Shown here: positions 1-32,589 of the stretch, piece by piece
How the letters are laid out: every line of letters starts with the position of its first letter
How positions within the stretch are numbered: the stretch's first letter is position 1
Notes under the pieces: generated by a model
The model's input: only the letters and a program-made list of their open reading frames with translations
Database searches by the model: none
What the model was told of the DNA's origin: nothing
Position numbers and translations under genes: made by a program
DNA from: Rhodobiaceae bacterium
GTDB lineage: Bacteria > Pseudomonadota > Alphaproteobacteria > Puniceispirillales > Puniceispirillaceae
DNA: 32,589 nucleotides
Direction of reading: 5' to 3'
Assembly (NCBI GenBank): GCA_018624035.1
Contig: JAAZUU010000015.1
Span: 1 to 32,589, forward strand

Positions 1-2
1 GC

Positions 3-13151: not shown

Positions 13152-13172
13152 GGCCATATGACCCTACCTCTC

Positions 13173-13199: not shown

Positions 13200-13266
13200 C
13201 TTAATTGGCAAATCTCCTGATCGATTAAAGTCTTTTCGAGTCCGCATCTCTGTCGAGGAAGGGAAC

Positions 13267-15230: not shown

Positions 15231-15976
15231 TGTCGGACCCGATCATTAAAGTCGAGGGTGTCTCGAAATCCTATGGCGGGGTGAAGGCGAATGTCGACAT
15301 CACGATGGGTGTCGAACGCGGATCAATCACTGGCATTATCGGGCCGAATGGCTGTGGCAAGACCACGCTGTTCAACTCGATTGTCGGCTATCATCCGATA
15401 GACAGCGGGTCGATCCAGTTCGACGGTCAGGAAATCTCGCATCTGCTGGTCGGTGATATTGCCCGTCTTGGCATGCTGCGGACGTTCCAGCAGACACGTA
15501 TCTATGGCAAGATGAACTGTGTCGACAACATGCAGATCTCGGTCTCGCATCGCGGGGATTCGAAATTCTCGATGTTCGCCAGCCGGAAAGGCGAGATCAA
15601 GGATCGGGCGGAACATCTGCTGGAATTTGTCGGCCTTTATTCAAAGCGCAACCTGATCTCGGGTGACCTGTCATTCGGCCAGCAGAAGCTTCTTGAATTC
15701 GCCATGGCGCTGATGAACGAGCCAAAGGTACTGCTCCTTGACGAGCCGACGGCCGGTATCAACCCGACGCTGATCAACGGTCTGATCGACCGGCTGCGGC
15801 GCGCCAATGAGGAGCTTGGGATCACCCTGTGCGTGATTGAGCACAATATGCGGGTGATCATGAATCTGGCCTCGCATATCTACTGTCTTGCCAATGGCCG
15901 CATGCTGGCCAACGGCACACCCGAAGAACTGCAGAATGACCAGCGCGTCATCGACGCCTATCTTGGAGGACATTGA
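15230..15976 (+). CDS. livG: Branched-chain-type amino-acid ABC transporter ATPase LivG
   Basis: Cytoplasmic ATP-hydrolysing subunit, 248 residues. Seen in order: Walker A GPNGCGKTT (near residue 38), the LivG-type insert with LGMLRTFQQTRIYGKMNCVD, the ABC signature region LSFGQQKLLEFAMALMNEP, Walker B VLLLDEPTAGINP, and the H-loop CVIEHNMRVIM. The signature has F for the commoner Y in LSYGQQ. It is coupled to livM (TGATG) and to livF (TGATG). Confidence 0.95.
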   Translation: MSDPIIKVEGVSKSYGGVKANVDITMGVERGSITGIIGPNGCGKTTLFNSIVGYHPIDSGSIQFDGQEISHLLVGDIARLGMLRTFQQTRIYGKMNCVDNMQISVSHRGDSKFSMFASRKGEIKDRAEHLLEFVGLYSKRNLISGDLSFGQQKLLEFAMALMNEPKVLLLDEPTAGINPTLINGLIDRLRRANEELGITLCVIEHNMRVIMNLASHIYCLANGRMLANGTPEELQNDQRVIDAYLGGH

Positions 15977-16989
15977 TGGCCGAGGACGAAAAGGCAAAGG
16001 CCGCAAAGAAGCCGGCCGCAAAGAAGCCGGCTGCAAAGAAGGCTGCCAAAAAAGCCGCCGCCAAAAAGGCAACCGCAAGGACAGCAACGGCAAAGAAGGC
16101 GTCAGCCAAGAAGACGTCAGCCAAGAAGGCGCCGGCAAAGAAGGGTGCCGTCAGCGGGTATGGCAGCGGGTCTGTCGATGTCGTGATGTCGGTCGACCAG
16201 GTGGCCAAGGAGGCGGCCTCGATCGCCGCCAACGCGCCCACGGTGGCCGAACTCGATGCCATGGTTACGGGCGAGACTTTCCTGTCGATCAACAATCTGC
16301 GTGCCGGCTATGGGAAGATGGAAATCCTTCATGATTTCAATCTGCGGATCGGCAAGGGCCAGTCGCTGTGCCTGATCGGACCGAATGGCGCCGGCAAATC
16401 AACGGTGCTGCATTCGATCTTCGGTTTCACCAACATCTTCTCCGGCAGCATCATGATCGACGGCAAGGATGTGACGGCGCTGACGCCCTCACAGAAGCTT
16501 GCCGAAGCCGGCATCGCCTACATCCTTCAGGACAAGTCTGTATTCCCGCAGATGACCGTCGAGGAAAATCTGCTGATGGGCGGGTTCCTGAAAAACAAAC
16601 CCGCCGAGGCCAAGGCAGCTGCCGAGGAGGTGTTCTCGAAATACAGCCGCCTTGCCGAACGTCGTGACAAGCCGGCCGGCGTTCTGTCAGGCGGTGAGCG
16701 GCGTCTTCTGGAAATCTCGCGGGCGCTTGTCATGCAACCGCAGGTTCTGCTTGTCGATGAACCCTCGATCGGGCTGGAGCCGCGTTTCATCGACATGGTC
16801 TTCGAGATTCTCGATGACCTTCAGCGAAGGGATGGCAAGACCATCATCATGGTCGAACAGAACGCGAAAAAGGGCCTCGCCTTCGCCGATCTCGGCTATG
16901 TGCTTGTGTCCGGTGAAACAGCCATTGCCGGTGACGGGGACGAACTTCTCGACAACCCGGATGTCGGCCGCCTGTTCCTTGGCGGCTGA
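15976..16989 (+). CDS. livF: ABC transporter ATPase LivF with a histone-H1-like N-terminal extension
   Basis: Second ATPase of the Liv importer, 337 residues where LivF is normally about 235. Residues 101-337 are a standard LivF: FLSINNLRAGYGKMEILHDF, Walker A GPNGAGKST at 135-143, signature VLSGGERRLLEISRALVMQP, Walker B VLLVDEPSIGLEP and MVEQNAKKGLAFAD. Residues 1-57 are a lysine/alanine-rich tract built from AAKK, PAAKK and SAKK units, like the C-terminal tails of histone H1 and AlgP, and 58-100 is a linker. ATG 15976 overlaps the livG stop, so the extension is translated from the coupled start. An internal ATG at 16261 would give a normal-size LivF, but no ribosome-binding site stands out there. 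Confidence 0.93.
   Translation: MAEDEKAKAAKKPAAKKPAAKKAAKKAAAKKATARTATAKKASAKKTSAKKAPAKKGAVSGYGSGSVDVVMSVDQVAKEAASIAANAPTVAELDAMVTGETFLSINNLRAGYGKMEILHDFNLRIGKGQSLCLIGPNGAGKSTVLHSIFGFTNIFSGSIMIDGKDVTALTPSQKLAEAGIAYILQDKSVFPQMTVEENLLMGGFLKNKPAEAKAAAEEVFSKYSRLAERRDKPAGVLSGGERRLLEISRALVMQPQVLLVDEPSIGLEPRFIDMVFEILDDLQRRDGKTIIMVEQNAKKGLAFADLGYVLVSGETAIAGDGDELLDNPDVGRLFLGG
16000..16041 (+). repeat. 15-bp repeats in the lysine/alanine tract of livF
   Basis: Two identical 15-bp units GCCGCAAAGAAGCCG (16000 and 16015) are followed by a 12-bp partial copy at 16030; further AAKK codons up to about 16143 continue the pattern with many synonymous differences (AAA/AAG, GCC/GCA/GCG). Confidence 0.75.
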
Positions 16990-17007
16990 CCGGCAGGGTG
17001 ACGCGGT

Positions 17008-18264
17008 TTGGCACGTCCGGGACCAGTCCCCGGTATCCTTGACGGAACCCGGCCAACCGCACTGATCACCATCACCTGCATGGCCGCTGTGCTGGCGATG
17101 ATCAGCTATGCGATCTGGCCGGTTTTTCTTGTCTCACTGGGGCCGGAATGGGGCCTGACCAATACTGAAATCGGCTGGATCAGCGGTGCCTATTTCATCG
17201 GCTATGTCATCGCCACCCCGCTGCTTGTGGGATTGACCGACATCATCGATGCCAAGCGCGTCTTCATCGGCGGCAGTCTGACCGCCGCCATCGGTTGCGC
17301 CGGCTTTGCCACCATCACTGACGGGTTCTGGGGCGCCGCGGTAACCTGGAGCCTTGTCGGAGCCGGGCTTGCCGGCACCTACATGCCGGGGCTGCAGATC
17401 CTGAACGCAAGGCTGTCGGACCAACAGCGTCTGAAGGCCGTTCCCTTCTATACCTCATGTTTCGGCATCGGCACGGGCGGTTCTTTTTATCTGAACGGCT
17501 ATCTGCTGATCAATTTCGACCATCTGATCGCCGCCTGGCTTGGCTGTGGCGGGGCGATCCTTGGGGCGCTGGTGGTGTTCCTGCTTGTTCGTGCCGCGCC
17601 GCCTGCCAAACGACCGGCCGCCGAACGTCGCCGCCATCCGCTGGATCTGCGACCTGCCTTTCGCAACAGGCTGGCCCTTGGCTATATCTTTGCCTACGGC
17701 GCGCATACATATGAGCTGTTCGCCTATCGCGGCTGGAGCTTTGCGATGTTCGCCTTCATCGGCGCCACGGCACAGCCGGCGCTGTCGCTGTCGGTCGTCA
17801 CGCTGCTGGTCAGCCTGTTGACGCTGACCGGCATGGCGGCCTCGATCATCGGCGCGCGCTACTGCCTTGCCTATGGACGGCATCGGGTGATCGCGATCAT
17901 CGGCGCGCTGTCGGTCGGATTTGCGGTGCTGTCGGCGCTGGCACTCGACGGGCCGGTATGGTTGGCGCTGGCCTGCCTGTGGATCTACAACATCTTCATC
18001 ATGCTCGACAGTGGCGCGCTGACGGCCGGCACGGTGGCCGCAGCGCCGGCGCATGAACGCGGCGCGCTTCTTGCGGTGCATTCGATGGTCGGGTTCTCCG
18101 GCGGCGCGCTTGGCGGCCCGGCGGTCGGGATGATGCTTGATCTTGGCGGTGGCGAGGCGTCGATGGATGCGTGGTTCTGGGCGATTCTGATCATGGGTGT
18201 CGGGTCGGCCATTGTCGCCATCATCCAGTGGCGGGCCTGGCGGCTGCGGGGATATGGGGTGTAG
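17008..18264 (+). CDS. MFS transporter, candidate pseudouridine/nucleoside permease
   Basis: A 418-residue major facilitator protein with about twelve hydrophobic segments. The N-terminal half has EIGWISGAYFIGYVIATPLLVG and then DIIDAKRVFIGG in the 2-3 loop, the MFS signature position. The central loop is basic (PPAKRPAAERRRHPLDLRP). Start TTG 17008 follows AGGGTG by 8 bp; it is not certain, and ATG 17080 would truncate the first helix. It ends 6 bp before psuK and forms one operon with psuK and psuG, so it may import pseudouridine. Known pseudouridine importers (PsuT) belong to a different family, so this role is inference. Confidence 0.85.
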   Translation: MARPGPVPGILDGTRPTALITITCMAAVLAMISYAIWPVFLVSLGPEWGLTNTEIGWISGAYFIGYVIATPLLVGLTDIIDAKRVFIGGSLTAAIGCAGFATITDGFWGAAVTWSLVGAGLAGTYMPGLQILNARLSDQQRLKAVPFYTSCFGIGTGGSFYLNGYLLINFDHLIAAWLGCGGAILGALVVFLLVRAAPPAKRPAAERRRHPLDLRPAFRNRLALGYIFAYGAHTYELFAYRGWSFAMFAFIGATAQPALSLSVVTLLVSLLTLTGMAASIIGARYCLAYGRHRVIAIIGALSVGFAVLSALALDGPVWLALACLWIYNIFIMLDSGALTAGTVAAAPAHERGALLAVHSMVGFSGGALGGPAVGMMLDLGGGEASMDAWFWAILIMGVGSAIVAIIQWRAWRLRGYGV

Positions 18265-18270
18265 CAGCTG

Positions 18271-19200
18271 ATGGCACCGGAACCGGGCTTCATCGTCTGT
18301 GGTGGATGCCATATAGACCGGCAGCTGCGCCTGACATCGACGCCGCAGCCGGGCCGGACCAATCCGGCCACTTCCCGCGAACGGCTTGGCGGTGTGGCAA
18401 CGAACATCGCCTGCCAGCTTGCCGGGTTTGGTGCGTCGGTGAGGCTTGTCTCGGTGCAGCCACCGGACAGTCTTGCGACGGTCGCGTCACGTCTCGTCGA
18501 TATCGGCATCGATCCGTGGCTGGCTCCGCTTGCCGGCGATCCGCCGGGATATACAGCGCTGCTCGCCCCGGATGGCGAGCTGCTGATCGGGGCGGCGGTG
18601 ATGGCGCTCTATGACATGGTGCCGGCATCCATGATCCAACCCGGGATCGAAGGATCGACCGGTCCGATCATCCTTGATGCGAATTTGCCGGCCGAAACCA
18701 TAACCGCCATCGCCGACATTGCCGCCGCCGACACCGCCGTCGCCGACACCGCCGTCGCCGACACTGGCATTACCGGTGAATTCGGGACGGCGCGGTCACT
18801 ATGTGCCGCCGGCACCTCAATCGCCAAGGTCGAGAGGCTGACGGCCGCGCTGCCATTGCTTGATGCGCTGGTACTGAATCGTGGCGAGGCAGCGGCCCTT
18901 CTTTGCGAGACGGGACCGGTGGACCGGATGGCGCTGGCGCTTGCCGCGGATATGCGGGGCAACGGCCTTGTTCTCGTCAGCGACGGGGCGGATATGGCGG
19001 CGCTGGCATCAGGCGGCGATGTGGTGACGGCACGCCCGCCCCGGGTTCGGCTCGTGAATGCGAATGGTGCTGGCGACGTGATGGCCGCACGGCTATTCTT
19101 CGACCTTGAGACTCGCCCGGACATGGCACCGGCGACGCGGCTCGACGCGGCGCTGGCGGCCGGAGCGGGTTACGCGGCGGGAGCGCGGATACAGACATGA
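18271..19200 (+). CDS. psuK: Pseudouridine kinase (PfkB family)
   Basis: Phosphorylates pseudouridine to pseudouridine 5'-phosphate for cleavage by PsuG. The 309-residue protein has the PfkB N-terminal pattern CGGCHIDRQLRL and GGVATNIACQLAGFGA, and the C-terminal anion-hole/base motif NANGAGDVMAA with the catalytic base at about D269. The family usually has D-T-T/S before GAGD; here it is N-A-N. The assignment to pseudouridine kinase rather than another sugar kinase rests on the 4-bp overlap with psuG. Between the substrate lid and the C-terminal half lies an ADTAV five-residue repeat from a 15-bp DNA repeat, an apparent loop expansion. Confidence 0.85.
   Translation: MAPEPGFIVCGGCHIDRQLRLTSTPQPGRTNPATSRERLGGVATNIACQLAGFGASVRLVSVQPPDSLATVASRLVDIGIDPWLAPLAGDPPGYTALLAPDGELLIGAAVMALYDMVPASMIQPGIEGSTGPIILDANLPAETITAIADIAAADTAVADTAVADTGITGEFGTARSLCAAGTSIAKVERLTAALPLLDALVLNRGEAAALLCETGPVDRMALALAADMRGNGLVLVSDGADMAALASGGDVVTARPPRVRLVNANGAGDVMAARLFFDLETRPDMAPATRLDAALAAGAGYAAGARIQT
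18712..18771 (+). repeat. 15-bp tandem repeat in psuK, four copies
   Basis: Units at 18712, 18727, 18742 and 18757; the second and third are identical (GCCGACACCGCCGTC). They encode ADIAA-ADTAV-ADTAV-ADTGI, a loop insertion in the kinase. Confidence 0.85.
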
Positions 19201-20123
19201 AGATGACGGAACAGCCCGCATTCACCTTCCGAATGTCCGATGAGGTCTCCGCGGCCCGCCGCGAGGGCCGGCCGCTGGTCGCGCTTGAATCGACCCTGAT
19301 CAGCCACGGCCTGCCGCACCCGCAGAATATCGAGGTCGCAACGGCGTCCGAGGCGGCTGTTCGCACGGCCGGCGCCGTGCCCGCGACCATGGCGGTGCTT
19401 GACGGGGTGGCGCATGCCGGACTTGCCGAGAGTGAGATGCATCGTCTGGCAACGGCTGATGGTGTGGCAAAACTGTCGCGGCGTGACCTTGCCATCGCGC
19501 TGTCGGGCGTGTCGGGGGCGGCGGCGCTTGGCGCGACGACCGTGTCGGCGACAATGATCCTGGCCGCGCGCGCCGGCATTGGGACCTTCGCCACTGGCGG
19601 CATCGGCGGTGTGCATCGCGGCGGCGAGGCCAGCATGGATGTGTCGGCCGACCTGTTCGAGCTGGCGCATACGCCGGTGGCGGTGGTCTGTTCCGGCCCC
19701 AAGGTGATTCTCGACCTGCCCCGCACGCGCGAGGTGCTGGAGACGATGGGGGTGACACTTGTCGGCTACCGGACCGACGACATGCCGGCCTTCTGGGCGC
19801 GGCATAGCGGGCTTGCCGTCGATTGCCGCGCCGACAGTCCGGCCGCGATTGCCGCCATCATCCGGGCGCGTGCCGAACTTGGCATTGGTGGGGCGGTGCT
19901 GGTCTGCAACCCGGTCGATCCGGCGCTGGCGATCGATATTGACGAGATCGAGAGCTGGATCGCCGCCTGTATCGATGATGCCCCGGCCGGTGCCGCGGCG
20001 ACACCCTGGTTGCTGGCTGAAATCGCGCGGCGATCGGAGGGCCGCAGCCTTGCCGCCAACAAACGCCTGATCATCGACAACGCGGCGCTTGCCGGTGCTG
20101 TGGCGGCGGAACTCGGCGGCTGA
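19197..20123 (+). CDS. psuG: Pseudouridine-5'-phosphate glycosidase
   Basis: Breaks the C-glycosidic bond of pseudouridine 5'-phosphate to give uracil and ribose 5-phosphate. The 308-residue protein is a clear PsuG: PLVALESTLISHGLPHPQN at 27-45 with E31, DVSADLFEL with the metal aspartate D152, and the Schiff-base lysine K169 in VCSGPKVILDLPRT, matching E31, D149 and K166 of the E. coli enzyme. NPVDPALAIDIDEIE and TPWLLAEIARRSEG follow as expected. Its ATG overlaps the psuK stop by 4 bp. The operon order is MFS-psuK-psuG. Confidence 0.96.
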   Translation: MKMTEQPAFTFRMSDEVSAARREGRPLVALESTLISHGLPHPQNIEVATASEAAVRTAGAVPATMAVLDGVAHAGLAESEMHRLATADGVAKLSRRDLAIALSGVSGAAALGATTVSATMILAARAGIGTFATGGIGGVHRGGEASMDVSADLFELAHTPVAVVCSGPKVILDLPRTREVLETMGVTLVGYRTDDMPAFWARHSGLAVDCRADSPAAIAAIIRARAELGIGGAVLVCNPVDPALAIDIDEIESWIAACIDDAPAGAAATPWLLAEIARRSEGRSLAANKRLIIDNAALAGAVAAELGG

Positions 20124-21858: not shown

Positions 21859-21973
21859 GGGAGACGACCTACCCCTCCAAACTCCGCAAGAAACGGGTCG
21901 ATGCGACGGGTTACCTGCCGTTATTCTTGCCAGATAAAGGTGCCTGACGATGGCGCCCTGGCAGGAGGCCCCG

Positions 21974-22750
21974 ATGCAGAACCACACCCGTCCCGACCCC
22001 ACCCGTTCCGACGACACCCGTCCCGACGACACCCGGCCCGACGACACCCGTCCCGACGACACCCGGCCCGACCGGGCCTGTCTCGACTATCGGCGGATCG
22101 AGGCCGCCATCGCCTATATCGCGGCGCATTACCGCGATGCGCCGTCGCTCGACGAGATCGCCGCCGCGGCCAATCTCAGCCCGTTCCATTTCCAGCGGCT
22201 GTTCACCCGCTGGGCCGGCGTCAGCCCGAAGAGGTTTTCCCGCTATCTGAGCCTCGACCATGCCCGCGCGCTGCTCCGCCATCAGGGTGCCAGCTGCCTT
22301 GACGCCGCCTACGAAGCCGACCTGTCTGCGGTGGAGACGGGGCGGCAGACAATGGGCACGGCGGCGCAGGCAGCCCTCGCGGCGCTGGACCGCGACTGGT
22401 CATCACCGGCCGAGATCAGGCTGCATCTTCACGCCACCCCGTTTCAGCTGAAGGTCTGGGAGGCGTTGCTGCGAATCCCCACCGGTCGGCTGGCAAGCTA
22501 TGGCGATGTCGCCGCTGCGATTGGCCGGTCCGGTGCCTCCCGCGCCGTCGGCACCGCCATCGGCGCGAATCCCGTGGCCTGGCTGATCCCGTGCCACCGG
22601 GTGATCCGGCAGAGTGGTGCGACCGGCGGCTATATGTGGGGGCCAGCGCGCAAACAGGCCATCATCGGCTGGGAATCGGCGCAGGGTGACATGGCCGGAA
22701 TGGCCGGCAAGCCCGACAGCGCCGGTGGCCCGGCCGGGGCCCGGGCGTGA
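21974..22750 (+). CDS. Ada-like fusion: AraC DNA-binding domain plus truncated methylguanine-DNA methyltransferase
   Basis: A 258-residue protein combining an AraC-type helix-turn-helix region (SLDEIAAAANLSPFHFQRLF at 58-77) and the C-terminal DNA-binding/active-site domain of O6-alkylguanine-DNA alkyltransferase (TPFQLKVWEALLRIPTGRLA, acceptor C207 in IPCHRV). Start ATG 21974 follows AGGAGG by 5 bp; ATG 21950 is an alternative. The N-terminus is a repeat of DDTRP. Compared with usual AraC-MGMT fusions, the end of the second HTH and nearly the whole N-terminal ribonuclease-H-like part of MGMT are missing: DAAYEADLSAVETGRQ runs into AEIRLHLHATPFQLKVW within about 45 residues. Activity may be altered. 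The next gene, an Ada zinc domain, overlaps by 4 bp. Confidence 0.88.
   Translation: MQNHTRPDPTRSDDTRPDDTRPDDTRPDDTRPDRACLDYRRIEAAIAYIAAHYRDAPSLDEIAAAANLSPFHFQRLFTRWAGVSPKRFSRYLSLDHARALLRHQGASCLDAAYEADLSAVETGRQTMGTAAQAALAALDRDWSSPAEIRLHLHATPFQLKVWEALLRIPTGRLASYGDVAAAIGRSGASRAVGTAIGANPVAWLIPCHRVIRQSGATGGYMWGPARKQAIIGWESAQGDMAGMAGKPDSAGGPAGARA
21980..22069 (+). repeat. 15-bp tandem repeat at the start of the Ada-like gene, six copies
   Basis: Six 15-bp units run from 21980; the last four alternate GACGACACCCGTCCC and GACGACACCCGGCCC, giving a 30-bp higher-order period. They encode the DDTRP repeat just after the start codon. A repeat like this can change length by slippage without shifting frame. 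Confidence 0.93.
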
Positions 22751-23580: not shown

Positions 23581-23968
23581 GATTCAACTCCATTAGCAAA
23601 AGGTGATGAACCGAAGATGCAGTCTAAATGGTAAACAAAAAGTTAACAATTGATCACATAAGAGTTACACGAAAATTTTAATTATAAATCAATACGTTAT
23701 TTATTCTGAATGGCGGGGCTCACGGCATCAAACCTTATTGCCGATATTGGTCAAATGGCTGAAATGCCAGCAGAGGACAGGTTTGGCCGATGTCGGGATC
23801 GGTGTCCGCGAAGGCTGACCACATCGTCCTGCCGATTCCGCCAGACATCTGTTGTCAGATGCGGACGGGTGGCGCGTGCTCTTGTCTCCCGGCCCCTGAA
23901 ACTGGTATACCAAATACTGAAAGAGACGGCGCAGGGTACGGCGCGTGGCATAAACCGGGGGACGTCAC
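23581..23968. other. 388-bp AT-rich divergent promoter region
   Basis: Contains the promoter of the small secreted protein and that of the dehydratase operon. Bases about 23625-23710 are strikingly AT-rich (runs such as AATTTTAATTATAAATCAAT) in a GC-rich window. Toward the dehydratase lie the dyad CATCTG-TTGT-CAGATG (23846-23861) and the TGGTATACCA palindrome (23903-23912). No convincing gene is seen here. Confidence 0.6.
23903..23912. promoter_or_regulatory. Operator site 1 (TGGTATACCA) upstream of the dehydratase gene
   Basis: A perfect 10-bp palindrome ending 56 bp before the ATG at 23969. Near-identical sites occur at 29287 and 32308. The sequence matches the core recognised by UxuR/ExuR-like members of the FCD subgroup of GntR regulators (core TTGGTATACCAA). 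Confidence 0.7.
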
Positions 23969-25141
23969 ATGATTACCATCAAGTCAATTCGCGCGCGGGT
24001 GTGGAACTGGAAGGGGCCAACCGTGCCGCCGCAGGGGAATTTCTGCACCAACGCCTCGGACATTCTGGGCGACCGCGGTGACGCCATGCAGTCCTTCCGT
24101 TTTCACCAGTGGCTCACCTGCGAGGTAGAGGCCAGTGACGGTACCGTCGGAATCGGTAACGCGGCGCTGGCACCGTCTCTGGTGAAGCGCGCCATCGATG
24201 AATTCTACGCGCCGATGGTCATCGGCCAGGACCCGTTCGATTATGCCTATCTGTGGGAGAAGATGTATCGCCGCACCCATGCCTGGGGGCGCAAGGGAGT
24301 CGGCATGGTGGCGATCTCGGCGATTGACATCGGTATCTGGGATCTGATGGGCAAGCTTGCCGGCAAGCCTGTTTTCAAGCTCCTTGGCGGGCGCACCAAG
24401 GAGCGCATCCCCTGCTACTACTCGAAACTCTATGCCGGCCCGGTGGAGGCGATGCAGGCCGAGGCGGAAGAGGCGATGAAGAACGGCTATACCGGATTCA
24501 AGACGCGCTTCGGCTATGGCCCGCGCGACGGCATGGCCGGCATGCGCGAGAACATCAAGCGTGTCGAGGCGGTGCGCGAGGTCATCGGATGGGACCGCGA
24601 CATCATGCTCGAGGCCTATATGGGCTGGAATCTCGACTATACGCGCCGGATGATCCCGAAGCTCGAGAAGTTCGAGCCGCGCTGGCTCGAGGAACCGGTG
24701 ATCGCCGATGACCTCAGGGGCTATGCCGAACTGAACCGTGGGCCGATCCCGATTTCCGGTGGCGAGCATGAATATTCGCTTCTTGGTTGCGCGCAGCTGC
24801 TTCAGGGAAAGGCGGTGTCGGTGCTGCAATATGACACCAACCGGGTTGGTGGCATCACGGCGGCGCAGAAGATCAATGCGGTGGCCGAGGCGCATCAGAT
24901 CCCGGTCATCCCGCATGCTGGCCAGATGCATAATTACCATCTGACAATGGCCAACATGAACTGCCCGATCGCGGAATATTTCCCGGTCTTCGATGTCGAG
25001 GTCGGCAATGAGCTGTTCTATTACATCTTCGAAGGCGACCCGGATGCTGCCGACGGCTATCTGCAGCTTGACGATGATCTGCCGGGTCTCGGGATCACCA
25101 TTTCCGACAGTCATCTTGAACATTTCGAGATCGAGGAATAG
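23969..25141 (+). CDS. Mandelate racemase/muconate lactonizing family sugar-acid dehydratase (rhamnonate dehydratase-like)
   Basis: A 390-residue member of the enolase superfamily, closest in pattern to L-rhamnonate dehydratase: [62 protein letters not shown] and [14 protein letters not shown] with [10 protein letters not shown]. Enolase-fold metal ligands would be E215, one glutamate of E241-E242 and E266; the catalytic pair is D289 and H316. Position 215 is Glu (MLEAYM) where rhamnonate dehydratase has Asp (MVDCYM), a conservative but notable change. It probably removes water from an acid sugar or hydroxy acid; the exact substrate is unknown. GGGGGA lies just before the ATG and operator site 1 upstream; a DMT permease follows. 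Confidence 0.88.
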
Positions 25142-25171: not shown

Positions 25172-26110
25172 GTGGTGAGCGGTGACAGTGATATTCGGGA
25201 CCGTGATATTCGGGGGCGTGATGAGGGGCTGACGAATTTGCCGCTTGGCGTCAGTGTGGCGCTTGGCGAGATCACCATGATGGTGGTGGTCTCGGCGCTG
25301 GTGAAGCTTGTCTCGGACGATATCGCGACAACGACCATCCTGCTGTTCCGCTATGCGCTCTGCCTGCCACTCTTGCTGGCGACGGCGGTGTGGCAGCGTG
25401 GGCGGTCGGCATTCAGCATCAGCCGGCCGCGAACACTGTCCCTGCGGATCGCCACCGGGTTGATCAGCCTTGCCTGTTTCTACGCGGCGCTCGACCTGAT
25501 GCCGTTGTCGCTTGTCACCGTGCTGTTCCAGACGCTGACGCTGTTCGTCACGCTGCTGGCCCCGATGATGCTTGGCGAGCGTGTGGGCTGGCGCCGTTGG
25601 TCGGCGGTCATCGCCGGCTTTGGCGGGACCATGCTGCTGCTGAACCCGGCGGCTGGGGGATGGACGCTGACAGGCATTCTGCTTGGCCTCGGCTCACCCT
25701 TCTTCGGTGCGCTGATGATGATCACCCTGCGTCGGCTTGGTCGGCATGACAGCCCGGCGACAACCGCCGTATGGCATAATGGCATGGGGACGATTGTCTT
25801 TGCGCTGATCGTTGTAGCGGCCGATGCGCCGCTGCCGACCGGCGGGGCGGATCTGGCGCTTCTGATTGGCATCGGGGTGTTGTCAAGCTTCCAGCAATTC
25901 GGCCTTGCCTTCAGTCACAAGCTGGTACCGGCCAGCATTTTGGCGCCGCTCCACTACCTGTCGATTCCGATGGGGATCGGCGCCGGTGTGTTGATGTTCG
26001 GCGAGGTGCTGACGGCCGAGATCCTTGTCGGCAGCACCATCATCATCGCCTCGTCGATCTTCATCCTGCGGCGCGAGCGCCAGCTTCGCCGGGCTGCCCG
26101 GGAATCGTGA
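25172..26110 (+). CDS. EamA/DMT-family permease
   Basis: A 312-residue membrane protein with about ten hydrophobic segments and EamA features (LLFRYALCLPLLLATAVW, FYAALDLMPLSLVTVLFQT, PMMLGERVGWRRWSAVIAGF). It starts at GTG 25172 or 25175, about 30 bp after the dehydratase, with no clear ribosome-binding site. The first 20 residues (SDIRDRDIRGRDE) come from a 15-bp repeat and may not be translated if a later start is used. Co-transcription with the dehydratase suggests it moves its substrate or product. Confidence 0.82.
   Translation: MVSGDSDIRDRDIRGRDEGLTNLPLGVSVALGEITMMVVVSALVKLVSDDIATTTILLFRYALCLPLLLATAVWQRGRSAFSISRPRTLSLRIATGLISLACFYAALDLMPLSLVTVLFQTLTLFVTLLAPMMLGERVGWRRWSAVIAGFGGTMLLLNPAAGGWTLTGILLGLGSPFFGALMMITLRRLGRHDSPATTAVWHNGMGTIVFALIVVAADAPLPTGGADLALLIGIGVLSSFQQFGLAFSHKLVPASILAPLHYLSIPMGIGAGVLMFGEVLTAEILVGSTIIIASSIFILRRERQLRRAARES
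25184..25228 (+). repeat. 15-bp tandem repeat at the 5' end of the DMT permease gene, three copies
   Basis: Units start at 25184, 25199 and 25214; the first two (GACAGTGATATTCGG, GACCGTGATATTCGG) differ at two bases and the third is diverged. They encode D-S-D-I-R, D-R-D-I-R and a third partial copy. Confidence 0.7.
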
Positions 26111-26129: not shown

Positions 26130-27635
26130 TCAGCTGAACAGCTCGCCATGCGCCTTGCGAAGTTCGGCCTTCTGGACCTTGCCCATGCTGTTGCGGGGCA
26201 GCGCATCCGCAAAGATGACTGATTTGGGCTGTTTGAATTTCGCCAGCCGTGTCGCCAGTGTGGCTTCGATGGTCCCGGCCTCAAGGGCCATGTCCTCACG
26301 AACGACAATGGCGACAACGGCCTCGCCGAAATCGCGGTGTGGCACGCCGATGACAGCGCTTTCCAGCACCCCGTCAAGCGCGTCGATCAGCCCCTCGACC
26401 TCCTTTGGATAGACGTTCAGGCCGCCCGAGATGATCAGGTCCTTGTCGCGCCCGACAATACTGACATAGCCGTCACCATCGCGCATGGCCATGTCGCCGG
26501 TGATGAAGAACCCGTCATTGCGGAAGGATTCCGCCGTCTTCTCCTCCATCTCCCAATAGCCGAGAAAGACATTGTCGCCGCGCAGCTCGATGATCCCGAT
26601 CTCGCCATCGGCAAGCTCGGCGCCGGTCCTGGCATCGGCGATCCGCAACTCCACCCCCGGCAGCGGAAAGCCGACCGTGCCGGCGCGCCGGTCGCCATCA
26701 TGGGGATTGGAGGTGCACATGTTGGTTTCCGTCATCCCGTAACGTTCAAGGATGGCCTTGCCGGTGCGCTCCTCGAACTGTCTGTGCGTCTCGGCAAGAA
26801 GCGGTGCCGACCCGGAAATGAACAGCCGCATATGCGCGCTCGCCGCGCCGGTGAACGCGTCGCTGTCGAGAAGGCGGGTGTAGAAGGTCGGCACGCCCAT
26901 CATCGTGGTGGCTGTCGGCAACCATTTGAGCGCCGCATCCACCGAGAATTTCGGCAGGAAGATCATCGATCCACCGACCATCGCCAGCAGGTTGCTGGCA
27001 ACAAACAGCCCGTGCGTGTGATAGATCGGCAGCATGTGAAGCAGCACGTCATCGGCGTTAAAGCGCCAGTAGTCACGGAGCACTTCGGCATTGGACAACA
27101 GATTGCGGTGGCACAGTTTTGCGCCTTTCGACCGGCCGGTCGTCCCCGAGGTGTAGAGAATGGCGGCCAGATCCTCGGACCCGCGGGGCACGGCGGTGAA
27201 GTGTGGCGGATGCATGGCCGCCGCCTCGGCAAGGCTGCCGGTCTCATCGCCGTCGAGAGTGAACAGCACCGCCCCGCCGCGCGCCGCAAGCGGCGCAATG
27301 GCATCGGCGGCGATGGTTCCGACAACGACGATCCTCGGCTTGGCGTCACCGAGGAAATAGTCGAGCTCGGCTGCCGTGTAACCGGTATTCAGCGGCAGAT
27401 AGACACCGCCGGCCTTGACCGTCGCCGCATAGAGCGCCAGCAGCATCACCGACTTGTCAGCCTGTACCGCCACCCGGTCGCCGGGGGCCAGCCCCGTGGC
27501 GACAAGAAGCCCGGCAAGCCGATCGGTGAGCGCGGTGAAATCGGCGAAACTCACCGTGCCGGCATCGGTATAGAGAAAGATCTTGCTGCTGGCGGCATGC
27601 TTTCCGAAGACGCTGTCATAGAGATGATTGGTCAT
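26130..27635 (-). CDS. matB: Malonyl-CoA synthetase
   Basis: AMP-forming ligase making malonyl-CoA (or methylmalonyl-CoA) from malonate, ATP and CoA. The 501-residue length and many segments match rhizobial MatB: MTNHLYDSVF at the start, YLPLNTGYTAAELDYFLGDA, LAAILYTSGTTGRSKGAKL (P-loop), LPIYHTHGLFVASNLL, RLFISGSAPLLAETH, ILERYGMTETNMCTSNPHDG, GFPLPGV, VSIVGRDKDLIISGGLNVYP and the catalytic lysine in LPRNSMGKVQ. AGGAT precedes the ATG at 7 bp. It lies 48 bp downstream of the sulfatase on the same strand, so the two probably share the promoter near 29200-29300. Its placement suggests that the pathway yields malonate or a substituted malonate. Confidence 0.95.
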   Translation of the reverse strand: MTNHLYDSVFGKHAASSKIFLYTDAGTVSFADFTALTDRLAGLLVATGLAPGDRVAVQADKSVMLLALYAATVKAGGVYLPLNTGYTAAELDYFLGDAKPRIVVVGTIAADAIAPLAARGGAVLFTLDGDETGSLAEAAAMHPPHFTAVPRGSEDLAAILYTSGTTGRSKGAKLCHRNLLSNAEVLRDYWRFNADDVLLHMLPIYHTHGLFVASNLLAMVGGSMIFLPKFSVDAALKWLPTATTMMGVPTFYTRLLDSDAFTGAASAHMRLFISGSAPLLAETHRQFEERTGKAILERYGMTETNMCTSNPHDGDRRAGTVGFPLPGVELRIADARTGAELADGEIGIIELRGDNVFLGYWEMEEKTAESFRNDGFFITGDMAMRDGDGYVSIVGRDKDLIISGGLNVYPKEVEGLIDALDGVLESAVIGVPHRDFGEAVVAIVVREDMALEAGTIEATLATRLAKFKQPKSVIFADALPRNSMGKVQKAELRKAHGELFS

Positions 27636-27683
27636 GGCTACGATCCTGTTTTGAATGGCTCGGCGGTACGCCGGAACAGGGGC

Positions 27684-29180
27684 TCAGGTCAAGTCGAAAC
27701 GGGTATAGAGTTCGGCTGGCGCCTCATGTGATGCCATTTCGGCGCGAATCAGCGCGCACATCTCCGCCTCCAGCCCGGCATCGCGAAAGGGTGATGTCTG
27801 TTGCGGGTCGGTGGCGAGATCGTAAAGCACGGTCGCCGTCTCGGCGAATCCGCCCTGACGCGGTGATCGCTTGGCGTCGGCGCGGGCGGGGAGCCGCAGC
27901 ACCGGCGCGCCGCAAGTGAAATCAAATCCGCGATGCAGCGTCGCGGGCGCCAGCTCGCGGGTGGTGAACAGGCTGTCGTTATGCGCCGGCATCAGCGTGT
28001 ATTCGAACAGGTCGTGGCTGTCCATGGATTCCGGATAACGGAAATAGCAGTGCCGCCCGTCGGTGGCGTTGATCGCCCCGCCGAAGATTCCGTAAAGCGC
28101 GACATCGTGGATCTTTGTCTCACGCCCGTCAAGAAGCGGCAGCAGCGAGCGTCCCCGCACATGCGGCCCCGGCGTCTCGCCGTGCAACTCAAGAAGCGTC
28201 GGCATGATGTCGATGCTCTGCGTCAGGGCGCTGATTCGCCGCCCGCCGGCATGGTCCGGATGATGGATCATCAGCGGGATTCGCGCGATCTCATTGTAGA
28301 ACGGCATCCTGTTCTTGGCCCACCAGTCATGTTCGGACAGCAGGAACCCGTGATCGGTCGTCAGGATGATGGCGGTGTCATCCCACCCGTCAGTGTCGTC
28401 AAGATGGTCAAGCAGGCGGCCAAGCTGGGCATCACACAGACGCACCAGCGCCGCGTAATTGGCGCGAAGTTCAGCTATTTCGGCCTCTGTCTCATCGACC
28501 TTTTTGTAGCGTGGCCAGTCAAGCACTGGCCCCTGATGGCCATTGTCGGCGTCGCGATACTGATCCGGGGCGTGAAAGGGTTCATGCGGATCGAAGGTTT
28601 CCATCTGCAACAACCAGTTGTCGGAACCGCCATTCTCTTGAAGGAACGCGATGGCGGAATCAACGCATTTCACCACCGGAAAATCGCCAACATCCCTGAT
28701 CCGTGTCCGGTTGATCATGCCCTGAAGGCGGTGTCCGTCGCGATGATCCTCGAACTGTAGCGGATGATATTGCGCGCGGAACCTGTCGAGCGGCGGGGCG
28801 ACCATCGCCACCCAGGGGTCTGATTCCTGGCCGCGGATGAAATCCCAGCTGGCATACCGCGTATGGTAGGTGGCCCCGCCATCCTCGAAATAATGATAAT
28901 GGTCCGATACCAGATGGCAGTAGGTGCCGCCTGTCTTCAACTGCGCGGCGAAACTGTCATCGAAGGGCTCCAGCGGTCCCCAGCTGCGATGCAGGAAATT
29001 CAGCCGCCCGGTCTGCATGTCGCGCCGCGCCGGCATGCAGGGAAGCGAGCCGGCATAATGCGAGTCGAAAACAGTTGACCGGGCCGCCAGCCGGTCAAAA
29101 TTCGGCGTCGGGATGGTCCCGCCCCAGGCACCGAGCGCGGACCGGTTCAGGCTGTCGAACAACAGGAACAGCGTTTTCAT
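27684..29180 (-). CDS. Formylglycine-dependent sulfatase (alkaline phosphatase superfamily)
   Basis: A 498-residue hydrolase predicted to cleave a sulfate (or phosphonate) ester. The sulfatase signature CMPARRDMQTGR at 48-59 contains C48-x-P-x-R, the cysteine that becomes formylglycine. N-terminal metal aspartate in LLFDSLNR and the later ILTTDHGFLLSEHDWWAKN supply metal ligands. ETFDPHEPFHAPDQY is typical of the group. No signal peptide is present (it begins MKTLFLLFDSLN), so it should act in the cytoplasm, unlike most polysaccharide sulfatases. It is divergent from the CaiB-type gene across a 178-bp region with operator site 2 and is followed by matB. A formylglycine-generating enzyme gene is not in the window. 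Confidence 0.9.
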   Translation of the reverse strand: MKTLFLLFDSLNRSALGAWGGTIPTPNFDRLAARSTVFDSHYAGSLPCMPARRDMQTGRLNFLHRSWGPLEPFDDSFAAQLKTGGTYCHLVSDHYHYFEDGGATYHTRYASWDFIRGQESDPWVAMVAPPLDRFRAQYHPLQFEDHRDGHRLQGMINRTRIRDVGDFPVVKCVDSAIAFLQENGGSDNWLLQMETFDPHEPFHAPDQYRDADNGHQGPVLDWPRYKKVDETEAEIAELRANYAALVRLCDAQLGRLLDHLDDTDGWDDTAIILTTDHGFLLSEHDWWAKNRMPFYNEIARIPLMIHHPDHAGGRRISALTQSIDIMPTLLELHGETPGPHVRGRSLLPLLDGRETKIHDVALYGIFGGAINATDGRHCYFRYPESMDSHDLFEYTLMPAHNDSLFTTRELAPATLHRGFDFTCGAPVLRLPARADAKRSPRQGGFAETATVLYDLATDPQQTSPFRDAGLEAEMCALIRAEMASHEAPAELYTRFDLT

Positions 29181-29286
29181 ATAAGTGTATCACTCTCCGG
29201 GGCCGCGCCGGCTGTGGCTGATCACCGCGTCAGCGCGCCGTTGGCAAGTTTTGAATTGACTTCAAAAAGGCTATCGTTTTCTAATT

Positions 29287-29296
29287 TGGTATACAA
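29287..29296. promoter_or_regulatory. Operator site 2 (TGGTATACAA) between the sulfatase and CaiB-type genes
   Basis: The 10-bp core differs from sites 1 and 3 only at positions 9-10. It lies 62 bp before the CaiB-type ATG (29359) and 106 bp before the sulfatase start (29180), so one repressor could control both directions. A second dyad, GGGT-N5-ACCC at 29316-29328, lies closer to the plus-strand gene. Confidence 0.65.
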
Positions 29297-29358
29297 TATT
29301 TTTTCATTGCTGATGGGGTGTTATACCCTGTCCAACGCACATAGGTGACGAGTTTCAG

Positions 29359-30543
29359 ATGCCTTTCGAACCTGCCAGCGATATCCTGTCCGACTACACC
29401 GTGCTTGATCTGACACGGGTGCGTTCGGGGCCGACCTGCGTTCGCCAGCTCGCCGACTGGGGTGCCAATGTCATCAAGATCGAGAACCCCGATACCGCCG
29501 GGTCGGACATGGGTGGCTCACGCCAGGGCTCGGATTTCCAGAATCTGCATCGCAACAAACGCTCGATGATCATCAATCTCAAGGATCCTGACGGCGTCGC
29601 GGTTTTCAAGAAGATGGCGGCCACGGCCGATGTGGTGGTGGAGAATTACCGCCCCGACGTGAAGTTCCGCCTCGGCATCGACTATGAAACGCTTCGCGCC
29701 ATCAATCCACGCATCGTCTATGCCTCGATTTCAGGTTTCGGCCAGGACGGGCCGCTGGCCGGCCGTCCGGGTTTTGACCAGATTGCGCAGGGTATGGGCG
29801 GCCTGATGTCGATCACCGGCGCGCCCGGCGAGGGCCCGATGCGGGTCGGCATCCCGATCGCCGATCTGACGGCTGGCGGTTTCGCCGCACAGGGCGTTCT
29901 GCTGGCGTTGCTTGGCCGCGAAAAGACAGGCGAGGGACAGTGGGTGCAGACCTCGCTTCTGCAGGCGCAGATCGCAATGCTGGATTTCCAGGCGGCGCGC
30001 TGGCTGATGGATGGTGATGTGCCGGGACAGGCCGGCAATGATCACCCGACATCGATCCCGACCGGTGTGTTCACGACGTCCGACGGCTATATCAATATCG
30101 CCTGCGCCGGCCAGCATATCTGGCTGCGCCTGAAGGATGAGCTGGCGGATCCGCGGATGGATCACGAGGATTATGCGGACCAGCCGACGCGAAGCAAGAA
30201 CCGCGTCGCGTTGAACGCCATCATCAATGAGAATACATCACGGGAAAGCACCGAATACTGGGTGGCGCGGCTTGCCGAGATCGGTGTTCCCTGCGGCGAG
30301 ATCAATAATATCCGGCAGGTGTTCGAGAACCAGCAGGTGCAGCATCTTGGCATGGCCCGCGACGTCGACAGCCAGGAACGTGGTCCCTCGCAGATTGTGG
30401 GCCAGCCGATCAGAATGAGCCGCTCGCGTGCCGATATTCGCCGTCCGCCGCCGACAAAGGGCCAGCATACCGCCGAAATACTTGCCGAGTACGGCTATTC
30501 GGAGGATGAGATCAACGGCTTTGCCTCGCGGGGAATCACATGA
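29359..30543 (+). CDS. CaiB/BaiF-family (class III) CoA transferase
   Basis: Class III CoA transferases move CoA between carboxylic acids. The 394-residue protein matches the family: VLDLTRVRSGPTCVRQLADW, GANVIKIENPDTAGSDM, HRNKRSMIINLKDPDG, VVENYRPDVKFRLGIDYETL, ISGFGQDGPLAGRPGFDQIA, and the catalytic aspartate D169 in VGIPIADLTAGG. It begins the plus-strand operon CaiB-crotonase-TIM barrel under operator site 2, and its stop overlaps the crotonase start (ATGA). It may activate the imported acid using a CoA donor formed later in the pathway. The acid is unknown. Confidence 0.9.
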   Translation: MPFEPASDILSDYTVLDLTRVRSGPTCVRQLADWGANVIKIENPDTAGSDMGGSRQGSDFQNLHRNKRSMIINLKDPDGVAVFKKMAATADVVVENYRPDVKFRLGIDYETLRAINPRIVYASISGFGQDGPLAGRPGFDQIAQGMGGLMSITGAPGEGPMRVGIPIADLTAGGFAAQGVLLALLGREKTGEGQWVQTSLLQAQIAMLDFQAARWLMDGDVPGQAGNDHPTSIPTGVFTTSDGYINIACAGQHIWLRLKDELADPRMDHEDYADQPTRSKNRVALNAIINENTSRESTEYWVARLAEIGVPCGEINNIRQVFENQQVQHLGMARDVDSQERGPSQIVGQPIRMSRSRADIRRPPPTKGQHTAEILAEYGYSEDEINGFASRGIT

Positions 30544-31352
30544 AATTCGACCAGCTCACATCGCATGCCGATGGCAAACTCCTGACCGGCATCATCGAGC
30601 GTGTCGGCCATGTGGTGATCAACAATCCGGAACGGCATAATGCGATCTCGCTGGCAATGTACCGGGCCGGTGCCCAAGAGGTGGCCCGCATGGCGGCCGA
30701 CCCCGAGGCGCGGCTGCTGGTCATTCGCGGGGCCGGTGGCAAGGCTTTCGCCTCTGGTGCCGATATCTCGAAATTCGAGACAGAACGCTCCAGTGCCGAG
30801 GATGTCGAGACCTACGCGCAGGCAAGCAAGGCGTTCTATGACGCCGTCTTCACCTTTCCCAAACCGACCATCGCTGTGATCCAGGGCTATTGCATCGGTG
30901 GTGGCATGGGGCTTGCCGTCGCCTGTGATCTGCGCCTGTGCGAGGACAAGAGTCGGTTTGCCGTGCCCGCCGCCAGGCTTGGTGTCGGCTATGGCTATGA
31001 GGGGATCAGACGGTTGGCCAGTCTTGTCGGCCCGTCGATGGTGAAGGAAATCTTCTTCACCGCGCGCCAGTTCAGCGCCGCCGAGGCCTATGAGATGGGA
31101 CTGGTCAACCGGGTGCTGTCGCCACAGATGCTGACCGCCTATGCCGATGACTATGCCAGCCGGATCAGCGAGAATGCGCCGCTGACAATCGAATCGGTGA
31201 AGGCCATCACGCAGGCGCTGCAGCTTGACGAGGCGGATCGTGACCTCGACGCGTTGGATGCGTTGGTGACGGGGTGCTTCGCCAGCGAGGACTATATCGA
31301 GGGACGCCGCGCTTTCATGGAGAAACGCAAGCCGAAATTCACCGGCAGCTGA
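30540..31352 (+). CDS. Crotonase-superfamily protein lacking both hydratase glutamates; possible acyl-CoA decarboxylase
   Basis: A 270-residue protein with the crotonase fold: oxyanion-hole segments GKAFASGADISKF (67-79) and QGYCIGGGMGLAVACDLRL (115-133). The two glutamates that hydrate enoyl-CoA in canonical crotonase (E144 and E164 of the rat enzyme) are G124 (GGMGLA) and A144 (VPAARLG) here. Downstream it reads LGVGYGYEGIRRL followed by VKEIFFTARQFSAAEAYEMG, a pattern close to E. coli methylmalonyl-CoA decarboxylase (ScpB/YgfG), whose active-site tyrosine aligns with Y151. The histidine of that enzyme aligns with A74. With matB nearby, a malonyl-CoA-like decarboxylation is an attractive inference; hydratase activity is unlikely. 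Confidence 0.85.
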   Translation: MKFDQLTSHADGKLLTGIIERVGHVVINNPERHNAISLAMYRAGAQEVARMAADPEARLLVIRGAGGKAFASGADISKFETERSSAEDVETYAQASKAFYDAVFTFPKPTIAVIQGYCIGGGMGLAVACDLRLCEDKSRFAVPAARLGVGYGYEGIRRLASLVGPSMVKEIFFTARQFSAAEAYEMGLVNRVLSPQMLTAYADDYASRISENAPLTIESVKAITQALQLDEADRDLDALDALVTGCFASEDYIEGRRAFMEKRKPKFTGS

Positions 31353-31395
31353 TACAGCCAGCCATGGGGGTTGGCATGAGACTGGGGAGGGATCT

Positions 31396-32238
31396 GTGAC
31401 CGGCATGACTTTGAAAGACAGGATAGGTGTTGATCTTGGCCGCAGATTGCCGCTTGAGGACGGCATTCGCTGGGCGGCGGAGAATGACGTCCGCTTTATC
31501 GACGCGCAGACCGACATCGCGCCGAACGCGCTTGAGACTTTCGATGACGCCCGCTGCGGGACGGTTCGCGATCTGCTGGCCGAGACAGGGGTCCATTTCG
31601 GGCTTCATACACTGTCCGGGGTCAATGTTGCCGAAATCTCACCCTTCTGCCGCGACGCCGTTGACAGCTACATGAAGGCCTATATCGACCTGGCGCCCAA
31701 ACTCGGGGCGAACTGGATCGTTGTTCATGGCGGCTATCATTTCACCGGCTGTCGCAAGATCAGGATGCAGGCCGCAATCGACAGGCTGCGCCGCATTGGC
31801 GACTATGCCGCTGAGCGAGGTGTCCTGCTGCTGCTGGAAAATCTGAATTGGGAACCGGTGCTTGCCGAGGTGAATTACATGCCCGTCACGCCGGCGGAAT
31901 GCATGCATTTCTTCCGCGAGGTCGACAGCCCGTCGGTACGCTGGTCATTCACCGCGAACCACGCGCATTTCCTTCCCGGGGTGGGAATTGCCAATTTCAT
32001 CGACGCGATGGATTTCAGCCTGTGCCACGAGGTCAGGCTTGCCGACAATAACGGGTCCTACGAAATCCACCAGCAGCCCGGTGATGGCACGATCGATTTC
32101 GGCGCCATGTTCAGCAAGATCGAGGGCATGGGCTATACCGGTCACTACATGAACGGGTTCGGCTCGATTGACGATATGCTGGTGGGGCGTGACCACATGG
32201 TCGCCCGCGCCCGTGAGGCCGGCCTCGCCGTCGATTGA
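31396..32238 (+). CDS. Sugar phosphate isomerase/epimerase-like TIM-barrel protein
   Basis: A 280-residue member of the xylose-isomerase-like/AP-endonuclease-2 TIM-barrel family, which includes hydroxypyruvate isomerase, IolE and IolI. Metal-ligand-like motifs are WIVVHGGYHF, LLLLENLNWEPV, SFTANHAHFLPG, and VRLADNNGSYEIHQQPGDGTID, each at the end of a predicted beta strand. Start GTG 31396 has GGGGAGG 6 bp upstream. It lies 43 bp after the crotonase gene in the same direction. The specific substrate cannot be read from the sequence; a hydroxy-acid or keto-sugar isomerisation fits the neighbours. Confidence 0.82.
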   Translation: MTGMTLKDRIGVDLGRRLPLEDGIRWAAENDVRFIDAQTDIAPNALETFDDARCGTVRDLLAETGVHFGLHTLSGVNVAEISPFCRDAVDSYMKAYIDLAPKLGANWIVVHGGYHFTGCRKIRMQAAIDRLRRIGDYAAERGVLLLLENLNWEPVLAEVNYMPVTPAECMHFFREVDSPSVRWSFTANHAHFLPGVGIANFIDAMDFSLCHEVRLADNNGSYEIHQQPGDGTIDFGAMFSKIEGMGYTGHYMNGFGSIDDMLVGRDHMVARAREAGLAVD

Positions 32239-32307: not shown

Positions 32308-32317
32308 TGGTATACCG
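32308..32317. promoter_or_regulatory. Operator site 3 (TGGTATACCG) upstream of the binding-protein gene
   Basis: The core shares nine of ten bases with site 1, and the flanks also agree with site 2 (AATTTGG before the dyad). It lies 144 bp before the ATG at 32462, separating the transporter gene from the TIM-barrel operon and suggesting co-regulation. Confidence 0.65.
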
Positions 32318-32461: not shown

Positions 32462-32589
32462 ATGCTCAGCACTAAGAAAATCCTGTCGGTTGGTGTCGGC
32501 ATCGCGTCGATGGCCGGCGTCATGGCGATGTCATCGGCACCTGTTGTCGCTGCCGAAGGCACAATCGAAGTTGTGACTCATGCCGGTGC
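32462..32589 (+). CDS. Periplasmic substrate-binding protein of a solute importer (3' end off the window)
   Basis: Only the first 42 residues are visible. They form a signal peptide: MLSTKKILSVGVGIASMAGV then MAMSSAPVVAA, with cleavage near AA-EG, followed by a first beta strand TIEVVTHAG. That start suits a tripartite tricarboxylate (TctC-type), TRAP or ABC binding protein. TctC-type is my first choice because such proteins often begin with a short IEVV strand, but the sequence is too short to decide. AGGAGG (GGGAGGAACC) lies directly before the ATG. With operator site 3 it probably imports the substrate of the neighbouring catabolic genes. Confidence 0.7.
   Translation, partial: MLSTKKILSVGVGIASMAGVMAMSSAPVVAAEGTIEVVTHAG

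Follow-up and report, generated by a model that had tools for sequence, protein, structure and literature searches.

The window, a stretch of 32,589 nucleotides, spans contig C176 from end to end; the draft genome to which this contig belongs measures 2.75 Mb. The window carries a group of catabolic genes that continues on a second contig of the same genome, C124, and this cluster is real, conserved and co-regulated. Our best explanation, which we put as a whole at somewhat less than an even chance, is that SAR116 bacteria hold these genes as one catabolic regulon under a GntR protein, the window being its left half. Through a tripartite tricarboxylate transporter (TTT), a small branched hydroxy-dicarboxylate would enter the cell, a route through a PdxA-type enzyme would convert it to alpha-ketoglutarate, and a cycle of coenzyme A (CoA) enzymes would provide a second way of decarboxylation. 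Gene identities and order, the shared operator, conservation and active-site residues are directly established; all substrates and reactions of the cluster are what we infer.

Operator and conservation of the cluster

The left half of the cluster includes the gene of an acid-sugar dehydratase of the MR_MLE family (enolase superfamily), which resembles L-lyxonate dehydratase (positions 23969..25141, plus strand). MatB, a member of the malonyl-CoA synthetase subfamily (26130..27635; NCBIfam NF005702), and a formylglycine sulfatase of the cytoplasmic type (27684..29180) are encoded on the minus strand. The plus strand encodes CaiB, a class III CoA-transferase (29359..30543), a crotonase that lacks both hydratase glutamates (30540..31352), a TIM barrel of the AP_endonuc_2 family with the ketose-3-epimerase fold (31396..32238) and the 5' end of TctC, the solute-binding protein of the TTT (32462..32589). 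The caiB and crotonase genes overlap by 4 bases, the TIM gene starts 43 bases further on, and the contig breaks off 128 bases into tctC. The sulfatase, CaiB, crotonase and TIM proteins are strong Pfam family matches. An earlier note on this DNA had named five genes (MatB, sulfatase, CaiB, crotonase and TIM barrel), and all of them lie where it placed them and belong to the families it gave (Pfam, NCBIfam).

The sequence also bears out the claim of that note that a single divergent promoter lies amid the five genes, with an operator common to the dehydratase and the importer. The operator core, TTTGGTATAC, has four copies in the whole 2.75 Mb sequence, compared with two of the control pattern read backwards. 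Three copies are in the window, none assigned to a strand: TGGTATACCA (23903..23912), 5' of the dehydratase gene; TGGTATACAA (29287..29296), in the divergent promoter of the sulfatase and caiB genes; and TGGTATACCG (32308..32317), 5' of the importer gene. A fourth copy, on contig C124 (locus L014), lies 5' of an operon that encodes an aldehyde dehydrogenase (ALDH), a DapA-type enzyme, a GntR/FCD protein, a PdxA-type enzyme and a second dehydratase, and that adjoins the tctB and tctA genes. In relatives, the gene sets of C176 and C124 form one continuous cluster, in which TctC is followed by TctB, TctA, MRMLE2, PdxA, GntR, DapA and ALDH. The earlier note was right about the genes in the window, but saw only half of the cluster; the PdxA, DapA and ALDH half lies on C124.

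A search for a 14-base palindrome that tolerated three mismatches at most gave 67 sites in 25 stretches (the two contigs and 23 stretches of relatives), against 12.7 expected from three single-base shuffles per stretch, which is a weak control. The repetition of positions is stronger evidence for an operator than this count. Palindrome sites recur in SAR116 relatives at the same four promoters, namely those of the dehydratase, of the sulfatase or MatB with CaiB, of TctC and of ALDH-DapA, which upholds the idea of a single regulon that includes the importer. The GntR/FCD protein encoded on C124 is the putative regulator acting at the four operators. An operator-like site on contig C137, which carries a malonyl-CoA decarboxylase gene, was rejected, as it falls within a coding sequence read by eye as a thiolase.

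Conservation was assessed in a family sample of 61 genomes (1.1–2.8 Mb). Genes of relatives were called with a simple open reading frame (ORF) script and labelled by BLAST against the window and C124 proteins; unlabelled ORFs shorter than 130–150 residues were dropped. The TIM protein has a match at 1e-30 in 24 of the 61 genomes, this one counted, and SAR116-cluster bacteria are among the closest named relatives of its gene. In 20 relatives with a TIM orthologue, the crotonase is always present and CaiB is found in 19, being cut by the contig end in the last (G060). MatB is present in 18, the two remaining contigs ending first. TctA (14/20), PdxA (13/20), GntR (11/20) and DapA (11/20) are also found, and elsewhere contigs end before the gene is reached. 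The earlier note had proposed that its pathway would fall if CaiB, crotonase and TIM genes never co-occurred; the trio stands together in these relatives. PdxA, CaiB, TIM and TTT genes are also found together in Afifella, in Granulosicoccaceae and in two SAR324/Deltaproteobacteria contigs, joined by DapA in all of these distant loci except Afifella.

Predicted lower pathway and candidate substrate

The lower half of the regulon is a pathway of a known kind. The window dehydratase carries KTR at residues 178–180 and His316; a KxR motif and a catalytic His316 are features of L-lyxonate dehydratase of the MR subgroup. Scores of 755–775 bits were obtained against three solved proteins, which are named by family or as putative galactonate dehydratase. 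The enzyme is 78.5% identical to a Ruegeria pomeroyi protein and 65–67% identical to Burkholderiales proteins that adjoin PdxA. Plasmid records from Ruegeria pomeroyi, Qingshengfaniella, Variovorax and Marinovum show its relatives adjoining PdxA genes, DapA genes or both; in Cupriavidus sp. EM10, match positions and ORF calls put PdxA and dehydratase side by side. In Qingshengfaniella, TctCBA, dehydratase, DapA, GntR and PdxA genes form a single run, and no CaiB is present in the stretch. The Ruegeria, Qingshengfaniella and Variovorax clusters encode a TTT or a TRAP importer, in full or in part. The Variovorax cluster also holds cytochrome b561 and SMP-30 genes; the ascorbate pathway of Stack et al. 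2020 reportedly begins with such enzymes.

The proteins encoded on C124 fit this picture. The DapA-type enzyme matches L-2-keto-3-deoxyarabonate dehydratase (PDB 7c0c/3fkk) over residues 3–304 of 305 (346 bits, E ~1e-102). The best NCBIfam match of the ALDH is alpha-ketoglutaric semialdehyde dehydrogenase, at 514 bits, below the cut-off of 770. The PdxA-type enzyme belongs to the PdxA family by Pfam. When 16 PdxAs of the cluster type, the C124 protein included, were aligned with E. coli PdxA (row own_C29, which is on the wrong strand, being left out), all 16 retained the three histidines, D247 and K274, and all 16 had replaced Asn283 by T/S and Arg292 by V/I. By comparison, five solved PdxA/threonate-phosphate enzymes all feature VN..T.GL and then IRTS in the N283/R292 region. 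The histidines are presumably the metal ligands, and N283 and R292 the phosphate-binding residues. Because these two residues are replaced, the PdxA-type enzyme probably takes a non-phosphorylated substrate.

Taken together, the dehydratase and the C124 genes likely match the lower L-ascorbate/L-lyxonate pathway, with alpha-ketoglutarate as the predicted product. The PdxA-type enzyme would decarboxylate a non-phosphorylated branched acid to a pentonate such as L-lyxonate, and the enolase-superfamily dehydratase would convert the pentonate to a 2-keto-3-deoxy acid. The DapA-type dehydratase would turn this acid into alpha-ketoglutarate semialdehyde, and the ALDH would oxidize the semialdehyde to alpha-ketoglutarate. 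Acetyl-CoA or propionyl-CoA had been proposed as end product in the earlier note, from the window genes; since PdxA, DapA and ALDH genes make up the second half, alpha-ketoglutarate is indicated instead.

The best candidate substrate is 2-carboxy-L-pentonate, which forms as ascorbate breaks down, or a closely related compound. According to PMC11066805, diketogulonate rearranges non-oxidatively and without an enzyme to this branched dicarboxylate, which then gives rise to lyxonate and xylonate. PMC10444878 describes a nearly complete ascorbate pathway that requires such a dehydratase in a SAR202 genome, and growth that was raised by ascorbate.

CoA enzymes and TIM barrel

MatB exceeds the cut-off of the NCBIfam malonyl-CoA synthase model NF005702 (759.6 bits versus 558). 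CaiB matches PF02515 at 388 bits, and its GIPIAD motif (residues 164–169) is kept in all 19 relatives listed; Asp169 is, we assume, the catalytic residue of class III CoA-transferases. The crotonase features Gly and Ala at the two positions occupied by glutamates in E. coli PaaF, and thus lacks the catalytic glutamates of an enoyl-CoA hydratase (Glu144 and Glu164 in rat numbering). This agrees with the view of the earlier note that it is not a standard hydratase. The LGVGY motif of the crotonase aligns with LGVPY of ScpB, so that Tyr151, which is invariant in 11 sequences, stands at the position of what we take to be the active-site Tyr140 of ScpB. The "decarboxylase-like active site" of the earlier note is thus a description of residues.

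The crotonase and CaiB are also partners elsewhere. A crotonase match at 1e-60 was found in 93 of 385 genomes of the class. We viewed 40 alphaproteobacterial loci, hand-picked from the upper part of 110 match rows; this genome, G005 and several upper rows were left out, G020 belongs to the SAR116 family, and genome G363 is counted twice. CaiB adjoins the crotonase in 29 of them (28 directly upstream, one downstream), and a TctA relative is within reach in seven. For instance, MatB, GntR, CaiB, crotonase, thioesterase and TTT genes are found together on Roseivivax and Octadecabacter plasmids, and TTT, GntR, CaiB, crotonase and TIM genes in Roseomonas marmotae. In E. coli, the crotonase ScpB carries the annotation methylmalonyl-CoA decarboxylase and ScpC that of a CoA-transferase, and PMC5512728 says that the two allegedly complete a succinate cycle.

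This gene company and the comparison with ScpB and ScpC suggest that CaiB, the crotonase and MatB perhaps act in a CoA-recycling decarboxylation of malonate-type acids. MatB would prime the cycle with ATP by making the first thioester, the crotonase would release CO2 from the malonate-type thioester, and CaiB would hand the CoA of the decarboxylated product on to a fresh substrate molecule.

As modelled (mean pLDDT 83.7), the TIM protein folds like ketose 3-epimerases, with a best Z of 26.7 and an rmsd of 2.6 over 258 aligned residues. Aligned with UlaE and YcjR, the protein keeps E148 and has T186, R214 and N253 at the other three of four positions that we take to be the metal ligands of ketose epimerases and hydroxypyruvate isomerases. 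The 14 family members compared likewise retain one of the four, and in Hyi itself the R214 position is occupied by Gln. The fold of the "TIM-barrel isomerase" of the earlier note therefore stands by model comparison, whereas three of the four metal-ligand positions of known isomerases are replaced. The TIM barrel may rearrange or epimerise a sugar-acid intermediate.

The TIM protein has a match in one plasmid record. A paralogue (~52% identity) sits with a TRAP transporter and with no CaiB beside it in several loci (L059:6807-7640, L069, L070, L114, L116, L121 and others); many of these loci also hold a methyltransferase-like gene or a different MR_MLE dehydratase. The loci represent a second conserved cluster. 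In two distant lineages, the TIM gene is adjoined by a DRL-type (homoserine-dehydrogenase-like) oxidoreductase (L101:8462-9799, by Pfam; L131:8511-9896, by a similar N-terminus), which may share the substrate of the TIM protein.

The most far-reaching form of the proposal is that SAR116 bacteria decarboxylate a branched hydroxy-malonate (2-carboxypentonate from algal vitamin C) through a catalytic CoA cycle, beside PdxA and under one operator, and that a TIM enzyme deprived of most of its metal ligands adds another new step. We regard it as improbable in this complete form.

Alternative explanations and known systems

Several observations weigh against the combined explanation of TTT import, a PdxA route to alpha-ketoglutarate and a CoA cycle. 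Both CaiB and the crotonase score below substrate-specific NCBIfam cut-offs: CaiB reaches 276.7 versus 750 for succinate-glutarate CoA-transferase and 209.1 versus 504.2 for formyl-CoA:oxalate transferase, and the crotonase reaches 159.9 bits versus 257 for PRK11423 (methylmalonyl-CoA decarboxylase ScpB). Two remote crotonases with a CaiB partner, from Azospirillum and Bradyrhizobium, do have the first hydratase glutamate, CaiB is not a neighbour in 11 of the 40 crotonase loci, and the two SAR324-type loci feature CaiB and TIM without a crotonase. The TIM protein or its paralogue is found without CaiB in many of the loci of a wider survey, of which 41 of 56 (L093–L133) were viewed. The E. coli cycle, according to PMC5512728, needed an added epimerase for propionate.

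Among the 20 relatives with a TIM orthologue, the window dehydratase is present in seven; in four of the other 13 the contig ends or is cut near there, and in nine the gene is absent from the visible flank. MRMLE2 is present in six of these nine, two end before its place, and G032 has neither. The ALDH is not in the visible cluster of G004 and G032. The Ruegeria candidate for the beta-propeller rearrangement enzyme, its role guessed from context, was found in 0 of the 61 family genomes, in a search that carries little weight without a positive control. The Chelatococcus candidate for an amidohydrolase-type lactone hydrolase, its role likewise guessed from context, has no match at 1e-20 in the draft genome (G000); it has matches of 30–36% identity in 18 of the 61 genomes. 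Because these candidates did not turn up in this genome, ascorbate itself is unsupported as the substrate, and a complete ascorbate pathway is not supported by the genes.

The cluster could instead hold two independent modules under one regulator, a pentonate or 2-carboxypentonate pathway of PdxA, dehydratases and ALDH and a separate (methyl)malonate pathway of MatB with an ordinary malonyl-CoA decarboxylase, CaiB and the crotonase acting on another CoA ester. The gene of such a decarboxylase lies on contig C137, so that MatB may simply feed that enzyme. PdxA, dehydratase and DapA genes occur without CaiB in Ruegeria, Qingshengfaniella and Variovorax stretches, and the Roseomonas, Roseivivax and Octadecabacter stretches hold CaiB and crotonase but no PdxA. 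However, one rare operator is common to both sets in SAR116, and both occur together also in Granulosicoccaceae, Afifella and the SAR324-type contigs. We consider two modules rather unlikely.

The CaiB-crotonase pair also adjoins unrelated catabolic genes elsewhere, such as those of a monooxygenase, fumarylacetoacetate hydrolase or hydantoinase/oxoprolinase (Sphingobium, Bradyrhizobium), and its chemistry may be generic. The pair would then be a CoA-dependent C-C hydrolase or isomerase unit of the retro-Claisen type, acting on an aromatic or alicyclic dicarboxylate, rather than a decarboxylase. This is doubtful, as MatB and the ScpB-like tyrosine suit malonate-type substrates.

In the pathway envisaged by the earlier note, desulfation and isomerisation would prepare a sulfated hydroxy-dicarboxylate for activation by CaiB or MatB, and a decarboxylation would then yield acetyl-CoA or propionyl-CoA. 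The sulfatase does carry a formylglycine motif (CMPAR, of the CxPxR type, at residues 48–52), which is the same in all 10 relatives, and two matches to the maturation enzyme family (FGE, PF03781) are present in the genome; no signal peptide is evident at its N-terminus, read by eye. In Marinovum, a relative (46.8% identity over 504 columns) is encoded ahead of a dehydratase-DapA-GntR-ALDH operon accompanied by a sugar ABC transporter, a context that suggests activity on sulfated sugars or sugar acids. The sulfatase gene is, however, an optional member. It was found in 10 of the 20 relatives, and was rejected as a core step because it is missing from the visible interval between MatB and CaiB in eight; no copy of at least 70% identity was found elsewhere in those eight, some of which are incomplete genomes. 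In G057 and G060, a sulfatase is on another contig. Where present, the enzyme would remove sulfate from a sulfated form of the substrate. With the remaining regulon pointing to alpha-ketoglutarate, the sulfated-dicarboxylate pathway is very unlikely, and a stand-alone five-gene pathway to acetyl-CoA or propionyl-CoA was rejected, as the cluster continues with the PdxA, DapA and ALDH genes. An acrylate-type CoA-transferase/hydratase pair, such as AcuN/AcuK, may also be considered, although the crotonase has no hydratase residues. Twelve Pfam sulfatases are encoded in the 2.75 Mb genome, one of which, on contig C142, is 56% identical to that of the cluster; the word "sulfatase" does not occur in the main text of the SAR116 surveys searched.

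Other genes are found in the window and beside the cluster. An EamA-family transporter (Pfam family match; 25172..26110, plus strand) is encoded between the dehydratase and MatB genes. A BhcA-like aminotransferase and a YdiJ-like FAD oxidase are found beside the cluster (L014:7536-12668, and L050 in G056), accompanied in G056 by gcvT, gcvH and gcvP look-alikes (by N-termini). These likely form a glycolate/glyoxylate-to-glycine unit, which looks separate from the regulon. Genes for a branched-chain-type ABC transporter, an MFS transporter, a PfkB kinase and an Indigoidine_A protein (pseudouridine-5'-phosphate glycosidase-like) occupy window positions 11943-20123 and are possibly an operon for pseudouridine uptake and breakdown. 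Positions 21950-22750 encode a short Ada-like protein, in which an AraC-type helix-turn-helix is fused to a methylguanine methyltransferase DNA-binding domain, and positions 1-3567 hold a partial phenylacetate-degradation-like gene set (PaaA_PaaC protein and reductase).

SAR116 bacteria are described as ubiquitous in surface seawater in PMC12262181. If the combined explanation is true, they consume branched sugar diacids formed spontaneously from ascorbate; the SAR116 surveys searched make no mention of this carbon source. A function would also be assigned to the CaiB-crotonase pair that recurs in Alphaproteobacteria and to the divergent TIM-barrel family. The earlier note knew of no described pathway with this set of genes. 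The dehydratase does fit a known kind of pathway, whereas the literature searched yielded no regulon that joins such a pathway to CaiB, crotonase, MatB and TIM, most subscription journals lying outside that search.

The lower L-ascorbate pathway of Cupriavidus necator H16, reportedly described by Stack et al. 2020, likewise comprises a PdxA-family decarboxylase, an enolase-superfamily dehydratase, a DapA-type dehydratase and an aldehyde dehydrogenase, to which the SAR116 cluster adds CaiB, crotonase, MatB and TIM. The L-lyxonate pathway of Pseudomonas aeruginosa PAO1, said to have been described by Ghasempur et al. 2014, also features a dehydratase with the KxR motif and catalytic His316, followed by a keto-deoxy-acid dehydratase and a semialdehyde dehydrogenase. 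In contrast, the SAR116 genes of the predicted pathway belong to a GntR/TTT regulon with CoA enzymes. E. coli ScpABC (Sbm) also pairs a crotonase decarboxylase with a CoA-transferase in one proposed cycle; ScpC is a class I CoA-transferase, whereas the SAR116 transferase is of class III, and the SAR116 cluster has MatB and no mutase. In the formyl-CoA transferase/oxalyl-CoA decarboxylase pair, a class III transferase hands CoA from the product to the substrate of the decarboxylase, which is a thiamine pyrophosphate (TPP) enzyme, whereas the SAR116 decarboxylase would be a crotonase. Finally, the TIM protein shares its fold with ketose 3-epimerases (D-tagatose 3-epimerase-like, UlaE, YcjR) and differs from them in three of the four metal-ligand positions.

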